Assembly (NCBI GenBank): GCA_000230955.3 | Contig: CP007060.1 | Span: 1,240,001 to 1,304,000 of the forward strand | Direction of reading: 5' to 3' | DNA length: 64,000 bases | Source of the DNA: Halobacterium sp. DL1 | GTDB taxonomy: Archaea > Halobacteriota > Halobacteria > Halobacteriales > Halobacteriaceae | In this document: positions 54,291 to 56,245 of the stretch, piece after piece | How the letters are laid out: each line of letters starts with the position of its first letter | How positions within the stretch are numbered: position 1 is the stretch's first letter | Notes under the pieces: model-generated | Told to the model about the DNA's origin: nothing | Databases searched by the model: none | Seen by the model: the letters and a program-made list of their open reading frames with translations, nothing else | Position numbers and translations under genes: made by a program

Positions 54291-55433
54291 ATGAACTTCG
54301 ACCTTCCCGACGAACACCGGATGATCCGGGACACCGTCCGGGAGTTCTGCCAGGAGGAGATCGAGCCGATCGCGTGGGAGATCGAGGAGGAACACCGCTT
54401 CCCCGAGGAGGTGTTCGACGAACTCGCCGCCCTCGACATGATGGGCGTCCCCGTCGACGAGGAGTACGGCGGCCTCGGCGGCGACCAGCTGATGTACGCG
54501 CTGGTCACCGAGGAACTCGGTCGCGTCTCAGGTTCTATCGGCCTCTCGTACGCAGCACACATCTCGCTGGCCTCCAAGCCCATCGAGCTGTTCGGCACCG
54601 ACGAGCAGAAAGAGCGGTGGCTCCGCCCGCTCGCGGAGGGCGAGTATCTGGGCTCGTGGGCGCTCACCGAACCCAGTAGCGGGAGCGACGCCAGCGACAT
54701 GGACACCACCGCGGAGAAGGACGGCCACGAGTACGTCCTCAACGGCACCAAGCAGTTCATCACCAACGCGTCCGTCGCGGGCAGCGTGCTCGTGAAGGCC
54801 GTCACGGAACCCGGCGCGGGCTACGACGGCATCTCGACGTTCATCGTCGACCCCCGCAACGACGACGGCTTCGAGGTCACGACCGAGTGGGACAAGATGG
54901 GACTGAACGCCTCCCCGACCTGCGAGATTCAGCTTTCTGACTGCCGCCTCCCCGAGGACCGCCTGCTCGGCGAGGAGGGCGAGGGCTGGGACCAGACGAA
55001 GAAGACCCTCGACGGCGGCCGCATCTCCATCGCCGCGCTCTCCACGGGCCTCGCCCAGGGCGCGTTCACTGCCGCGAAGGAGTACGCCGTCGAACGCGAG
55101 CAGTTCGGCCAGCCCATCTCGAAGTTCGACGCCATCCGGAACAAGCTCGTCGACATGCACCGGAAGACCGAGCGCGCCCGCCTCCTCACCCACAAGGCCG
55201 CAACCCGCTACGACAACGGCCAGTCGGTCACCCAGGAGTCCGCGCTCGCGAAACTCGACGCCAGCGAGGCTGCCCGGGAGGTCGCCGAGGACGCCGTTCA
55301 GACCCTCGGCGGCTACGGCTACACCACGGACTTCGCGCCCCAGCGGTTCTTCCGCGACGCGAAACTGATGGAGATCGGCGAAGGCACCAGCGAGATTCAG
55401 CACCTCGTTCTCGGTCGCGAACTGGGTCTGTAG
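54291..55433 (+). CDS. Acyl-CoA dehydrogenase
   Basis: A 380-residue flavoenzyme with the complete short-chain type pattern: 'DEHRMIRDTVREFCQEEIEPIAWE', 'GVPVDEEYGGLGGD', 'GSWALTEPSSGSDASDM', 'YVLNGTKQFITNA' and C-terminal 'DAKLMEIGEGTSEIQHLVLGREL'. The Glu in IGEGTSE is at the place of the catalytic base of the butyryl/short-chain enzymes. It introduces the trans-2 double bond in acyl-CoA with FAD and passes electrons to ETF. No other beta-oxidation gene is in the window. Confidence 0.93.
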   Translation: MNFDLPDEHRMIRDTVREFCQEEIEPIAWEIEEEHRFPEEVFDELAALDMMGVPVDEEYGGLGGDQLMYALVTEELGRVSGSIGLSYAAHISLASKPIELFGTDEQKERWLRPLAEGEYLGSWALTEPSSGSDASDMDTTAEKDGHEYVLNGTKQFITNASVAGSVLVKAVTEPGAGYDGISTFIVDPRNDDGFEVTTEWDKMGLNASPTCEIQLSDCRLPEDRLLGEEGEGWDQTKKTLDGGRISIAALSTGLAQGAFTAAKEYAVEREQFGQPISKFDAIRNKLVDMHRKTERARLLTHKAATRYDNGQSVTQESALAKLDASEAAREVAEDAVQTLGGYGYTTDFAPQRFFRDAKLMEIGEGTSEIQHLVLGRELGL

Positions 55434-55487
55434 TCCTCGGACCCGGCCTCTCTTCTCCTGGGGCGAGTTCTGGAGTCAACACTACCC

Positions 55488-55762
55488 CGAAAGCCCCCGC
55501 TCGCTCGACTCGGGAGTCTCGCTGTGCTCCTCGCTCACTCCGTTCGCTGCGGTGCTTGCGTCGCCTGCCATCGTCGAGCGAGCGGCCCCTTTCAGTCCCA
55601 CCCACTGCCAGCTGGCCAACCGATGGACCGTGCTGCCTGACGAACTGGCGTGGGGAGACTGAAAGGGGCGGCCGGCTACGGGAAGCCCGGCGACATAAGC
55701 ACCGCAGGCCGCAGGCCGAGGAGCGCAGCGAGCCGCGCGAGCGGAGCCGGACGGGGCTTTCG
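55488..55762. repeat. 275-bp nested inverted-repeat element (long imperfect hairpin)
   Basis: The sequence folds back on itself over its whole length. Paired arms, outermost first: 55488-55497 with 55753-55762 (10 bp, CGAAAGCCCC/GGGGCTTTCG); 55497-55504 with 55737-55744 (8 bp); 55526-55533 with 55717-55724 (8 bp); 55547-55557 with 55697-55707 (11 bp, CTGCGGTGCTT/AAGCACCGCAG); 55560-55565 with 55689-55694 (6 bp); 55582-55597 with 55657-55672 (14 of 16). The remaining loop is 59 bases. The 383-base spacer holds no coding frame of its own and lies between convergent genes. Possible explanations are a structured RNA, a bidirectional terminator or a small mobile (MITE-like) element. Confidence 0.75.
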
Positions 55763-55816
55763 AAGTTTTGGCGGCGCTGCTCGGTTCAGCGCCTCGAACG
55801 GCACAAGCAGAAACTA

Positions 55817-56245
55817 CTAGCCGCGTTGTTCGAGAATCCGGTCGACGATGGTGCCCGTGGAGAGCAGCTCCTCCTCGTACTTCTGTTCGCGGGGGGAGGC
55901 GCGTTTCACTTCGCAGTCCACCCCGCGTTCGGCGAGTTCGGCCTTGATGGCGTCGGCGTCGTGGTGTTGGTCGTAGCCGAGCGCGATGACCGACGGCTCT
56001 ATCTCCTCGATGGGCGCGAAGATGTCCGAGGGGTGGCCGACGCGGGCGTGGTCGACTGGGTCGAGGGCGGCGACGACGTCGCGGCGCTGGCGGTTCGGGA
56101 GGATGGGCGGGTCCTTGTGGGTGACGTTCTCCCGGCGCGCGACGATGACGTGGAGTTCGTCGCCCATCCCGGCGGCGTCCTGCAAGTAGTGGACGTGGCC
56201 GGGGTGGATGAGGTCGAACGTTCCCTGCGCGACGACTCGTCTCAT
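55817..56245 (-). CDS. ribL: Archaeal FAD synthetase (FMN adenylyltransferase)
   Basis: A 142-residue nucleotidyltransferase of the cytidylyltransferase fold. The N-terminal motif is '[20 protein letters not shown]' with H-P-G-H, then '[32 protein letters not shown]' and C-terminal '[12 protein letters not shown]' (ST-S/G-TI-type signature). RibL adenylates FMN to FAD using ATP and is the archaeal replacement for bifunctional RibF. It overlaps the JAMM gene upstream by 4 bases (56242-56245), so the two are co-transcribed. Confidence 0.92.

Follow-up and report, generated by a model that had tools for sequence, protein, structure and literature searches.

The hairpin element at 55488..55762 of the window (by which we mean the whole stretch of 64,000 nucleotides from Halobacterium sp. 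DL1 analysed here) is best explained as an old and probably immobile two-module copy, now decayed, of an IS6-associated MITE-like element that occurs throughout the class Halobacteria, a reading to which we give a probability of about 0.75. Intact copies of this family in other genomes have IS6-type ends, many of them with 8-bp target duplications, and no transposase. For the window copy, the classification as an IS6-type MITE is carried over from these other copies. No IS6-type terminal repeat was detectable around it within reach, and it is therefore classed as a decayed relative rather than as an intact IS6-type MITE. The features of the locus are the following, where G000 denotes the genome of the window, other G numbers denote relatives or carriers, and L numbers denote loci.

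55488..55762, no strand: two-module hairpin element (conserved body), based on inverted-repeat pairing, folding and the covariance model
54291..55433, plus strand: left neighbour, convergent acyl-CoA dehydrogenase gene (PF00441, PF02770, PF02771)
55817..56245, minus strand: right neighbour, convergent cytidylyltransferase-like (RibL-type) gene (PF01467)
55486..55606, minus strand: module A, a 121-position covariance-model match of 128.8 bits, with its GACTGAAAGGGG end towards the centre
55648..55764, plus strand: module B, a covariance-model match of 87.4 bits
55607..55647, no strand: central linker, with the model ends 41 bp apart, holding a CTGGCCAACCG core known from other pairs
55488-55497, minus strand: outer box of module A, CGAAAGCCCC, equal to the conserved module 3' end GGGGCTTTC
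55753-55762, plus strand: outer box of module B, GGGGCTTTCG, pairing with CGAAAGCCCC of module A
55547-55557/55697-55707: 11-bp arm pair CTGCGGTGCTT/AAGCACCGCAG
55551..55563, minus strand: conserved box within module A, read as CGACGCAAGCACC on this strand
55691..55703, plus strand: conserved box within module B, CGACATAAGCACC
55585-55597, minus strand: inner box of module A, GCCCCTTTCAGTC, pairing with GACTGAAAGGGGC
55657-55669, plus strand: inner box of module B, GACTGAAAGGGGC

The initial annotation had described six nested complementary arms at this location, in an order beyond chance, and both points hold. The arms are present, and the 275 nt fold as RNA into one long hairpin of -170.9 kcal/mol (z -8.45); folded as DNA, they give an energy of -94.1 (z -7.31), and none of 200 shuffles equals either value. 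The two halves of the element are the same module of ~112 bp, arranged head to head, and each module is itself an inverted repeat. Therefore, the nested order of the arms results from two inverted copies of one repeated module.

Each module runs from GGGACTGAAAGGGGC to GGGGCTTTC, with a variable stem of ~12 bp and internal boxes near CGACGCAAGCACC and GAGGAGCGCAGCGAG in between. With a covariance model built from 26 modules, we found 41 modules in G000, including 10 head-to-head pairs; the opposite arrangement was absent among the paired modules of this genome. The model ends are spaced by 13-18 bp in eight of the pairs, by 41 bp in the window pair and by 76 bp in one other. The model also matched 28 of the 40 genomes in the search of relatives and, in the Halobacteria search, 245 of 292 genomes and 65 of 77 genera. 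An exact two-box pattern, searched in one genome per species (84,980 species), recovered at least 80 loci, and the matches listed were all from Halobacteria. The search for further copies proposed in the initial annotation is thus answered positively, both in this genome and in other haloarchaea, and the GACTGAAAGGGG-containing stretches that it mentioned in other haloarchaea proved to be real in the covariance-model and exact-pattern searches. The exact pattern had no match in viral contigs, and phage records had no match to the element. Some haloarchaeal plasmids do match; part of these matches come from a distinct small insert that the query also contained.

Several modules carry such inserts. 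A double-hairpin insert of ~57 bp (GTTCGAAAGACGG...CTCTCTCGAAC) lies inside modules at L009 (unit at 1947), L016 (unit at 2156), L011, L133, L166 and L190, and dispersed copies of it also occur at other sites in relatives and on plasmids of haloarchaea; it is possibly an IS200/IS605-derived remnant. Further small double-hairpin inserts are located at the CAGTC box or within modules at L018 (between units), L092 (G011), L176, L181, L190 and the G252 copies L156-L159. As a separate observation, read by eye, the interior of the second module at L116 2198-2316 (G010) is inverted relative to its end boxes when compared with L015.

The association with IS6 comes from copies whose limits can be drawn. 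Four near-identical copies in G252 remain identical for ~38-40 bp past the boxes on each side, and their ends, GGTACTGTTTAGATTAGC and AGTAGTGTTTAGATAAGC, both recur at other loci. At L199, an ORF with an IS240/IS6 transposase domain (PF13610, E 1.3e-6) adjoins the same kind of terminal repeat. In a systematic scan, 39 copies from other genomes contained modules and had IS6-type terminal inverted repeats at both ends; 12 of them have target duplications matching at 8/8 positions and six at 7/8, compared with 2 and 28, respectively, in 3000 random trials. These bounded copies are ~202-228 bp long when they contain one module and mostly ~320-378 bp when they contain two, with a few longer; they carry no transposase gene, and their bodies consist of hairpin modules. 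One of them, a one-module copy of 228 bp with the duplication CTCGGAGC, is found in G009, from the genus of the window. Across the 80 named loci, an IS6 core is located on the expected side of 15 of 83 modules, where 1.0 would be expected. The modules of G010 show this excess (z 3.30), and those of G000, taken as a set, do not (z 0.73). Because the ends of the window copy are undefined, the 8-bp duplication is known from other copies alone.

Transposases of the family are present in many carrier genomes (PF13610), whereas the search of G000 and G010 for this domain gave no match, making present-day movement there by a resident IS6 transposase unlikely. In addition, ~15 of the 20 element-free Halobacteria genomes listed do have IS6 transposases, and the presence of the element is therefore not tied to IS6. 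Two further structures were observed among the carriers. At L183 ~1501 (G252), a tiny deletion derivative retains a single terminal arm, fused to the terminal repeat of the other end, with TGTGACAG on both flanks, and the near-identical L172 and L173 of G188 have ~340 bp in common, with one module and no clear IS6-type ends. Two equal-scoring places in G279 were considered as recent copies of each other and were rejected on comparison.

Comparisons with relatives provide one insertion event in the genome of the window. The copy at L016 corresponds to a 428-bp insertion that is absent in all six relatives searched, where the flanks are contiguous with 8 bp between them, although the insertion shows no recognisable target duplication or terminal repeat. 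L121 offered no clean empty site in comparison with G000. At the locus of the window copy, G000 has the element, G009, G011 and G003 have variant hairpins, and G010 and several other relatives lack the element. Since G010 has unrelated DNA here, this locus does not offer a clean empty site. The loci orthologous to window 55434-55816 in G003 (L090), G011 (L092) and G009 (L095) have similar outer boxes and a different hairpin interior (GTTCACGTGGTCGTCTCGCCA...). Among the options that had been left open by the initial annotation, a non-autonomous mobile element is thus supported by the dispersed copies, by the IS6-type ends and 8-bp duplications in other genomes, and by the empty-site comparison of L016.

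How the hairpin body evolves bears on other readings of the module at the DNA level. Fourteen loci of G000 are common to the sister species G010. At these common sites, the boxes are 89-100% identical, a value inflated by the fact that they were located by pattern, compared with 54-58% for the stem arms and 58% for the outer flanks, and the stems have been replaced by new, still complementary sequences. The outer flanks of orthologous loci (0.639 identity against a background of 0.587) are near saturation, and therefore the vertical descent of the modules at common sites is not readable from them. Within G000, L013 and L021 are 88% identical, whereas each is 75-79% identical to its own common-site module in G010; this implies that at least one locus underwent replacement, unless rates differ strongly. 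Mobility alone does not explain the conservation of the boxes at old sites. It is possible, although we regard it as doubtful, that the module is a domesticated hairpin, now held by selection as a DNA-level site (for protein binding, topology or recombination) whatever its carrier, which can be compatible with a mobile origin. The identity of the boxes relative to stems and flanks, the 14 common sites and the retention of the body after the loss of the terminal repeats are in line with such selection. Nevertheless, the identity of the boxes is overestimated as noted above, and exchange between copies could keep them without selection, as 16 of 19 modules have their best match at another locus. 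To our knowledge, neither a binding protein nor a phenotype has been described for the module. A further reading, which we consider unlikely, sees the ~112-bp module itself as the unit that is maintained and exchanged across Halobacteria, a DNA cassette whose boxes at both ends bound swaps between fixed intergenic sites or in-place inversion, with IS6 ends as only one of several vehicles.

The initial annotation had also proposed compensatory changes in the stems as a check for a structured RNA. Covariation is indeed very strong: 96.4% of cells are paired, compared with 33-41% when slid, and 949 cells show double changes, compared with 270 when shuffled. However, it is not decisive for RNA, because DNA arms copied from each other would show the same. 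We consider it less likely, though possible, that the module is read from GACTGAAAGGGG to GGGGCTTTC at its many loci, as a structured non-coding RNA or as a regulatory element at the RNA level, and on balance this appears rather improbable. On that strand, G-U pairs outnumber A-C pairs (69 vs 31), but the asymmetry is weak and concentrated in few columns: a single column pair contributes 29 G-U cells, and without it the counts are 40 vs 31; the corresponding counts in haloarchaeal tRNA stems at the same loci are 9 vs 0 (a small sample). Wobble steps are rare even though the stems swap CG, GC and UA freely, module B folded alone is not better than its shuffles (z 0.87), and no Rfam family was matched at the gathering score. 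Relative to the neighbouring genes, the modules show no preferred strand, and they frequently lie between divergent genes, so that their orientation and gene context give no support for a co-transcribed RNA. The same context makes a bidirectional transcription terminator between convergent genes very improbable: the window copy is a strong hairpin between two such genes, but only 7 of the 69 places scored are convergent, with 21 divergent and 41 tandem, the genes having been called by a simple composition score. Of the two remaining proposals of the initial annotation, the terminator is thus unsupported as a general function, and the structured RNA retains a low probability.

Returning to a decayed IS6-associated MITE-like element as the preferred explanation, an IS6-family (DDE_Tnp_IS240) transposase would act in trans, recognising the terminal repeats and inserting the element into intergenic DNA. 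The window copy may have had both modules when it entered between the acyl-CoA dehydrogenase and RibL-type genes, and the decay of its outer terminal repeats would have come later. After insertion, the body would be subject to stem-copying between arms and to exchange with other loci, two processes that could keep the boxes and the complementarity while the sequences of the stems turn over.

The element shares features with several known repeats. Bacterial REPs are 20-40 bp long and linked to RAYT (Y1) transposases, whereas the modules described here, at ~112 bp and with IS6-type ends, fall outside this size. Nevertheless, the resemblance to REP/BIME and REPIN lies in a palindromic module that occurs between genes, both singly and as inverted pairs separated by a short linker (PMC3116915, PMC3733652). 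In haloarchaea, the MITEs, PATEs and SMRs of Haloquadratum walsbyi are likewise non-coding dispersed repeats with palindromic parts (PMC3119063); compared by description only, PATEs differ in being derived from IS605-type elements and in having no terminal inverted repeats (PMC3119063). The closest descriptions are those of IS6-family MITEs, of which two, of 227 and 336 bp, appear in the portions of the literature available, one of them being MITEHarch3 (PMC7986276, PMC6807381). According to the same portions, MITEHarch3 and MITEBth2 (ISfinder) resemble the hairpin elements in their IS6-type terminal repeats, in lacking a transposase gene and in the 8-bp target duplication of the family, and their lengths, compared here by description, are near our one- and two-module size classes (PMC7986276, PMC6807381). 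In contrast, a class-wide conserved body that outlasts lost ends is absent from the descriptions in these portions. The haloarchaeal IS6 group of ISH14, ISH15 and ISH29, as far as it is covered there, also has IS6-type ends and target duplications of ~8 bp (PMC6807381). Unlike the hairpin elements, its members carry a transposase. Among the papers listed on REPIN/RAYT in haloarchaea and on haloarchaeal intergenic inverted repeats, we did not find a description of the element, and searching the literature for its literal motifs gave no relevant result.

These results define a searchable repeat family, by a covariance model and by an exact box pattern, which most of the tested haloarchaeal genomes contain, in many cases in dozens of intergenic places, and whose intact copies are tied to IS6-type transposition. 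They also call for caution, as repeated hairpins can covary strongly without being RNA. Finally, they raise the question of what conserves the hairpin body, with stems that turn over and yet stay complementary, once the transposon ends are gone.
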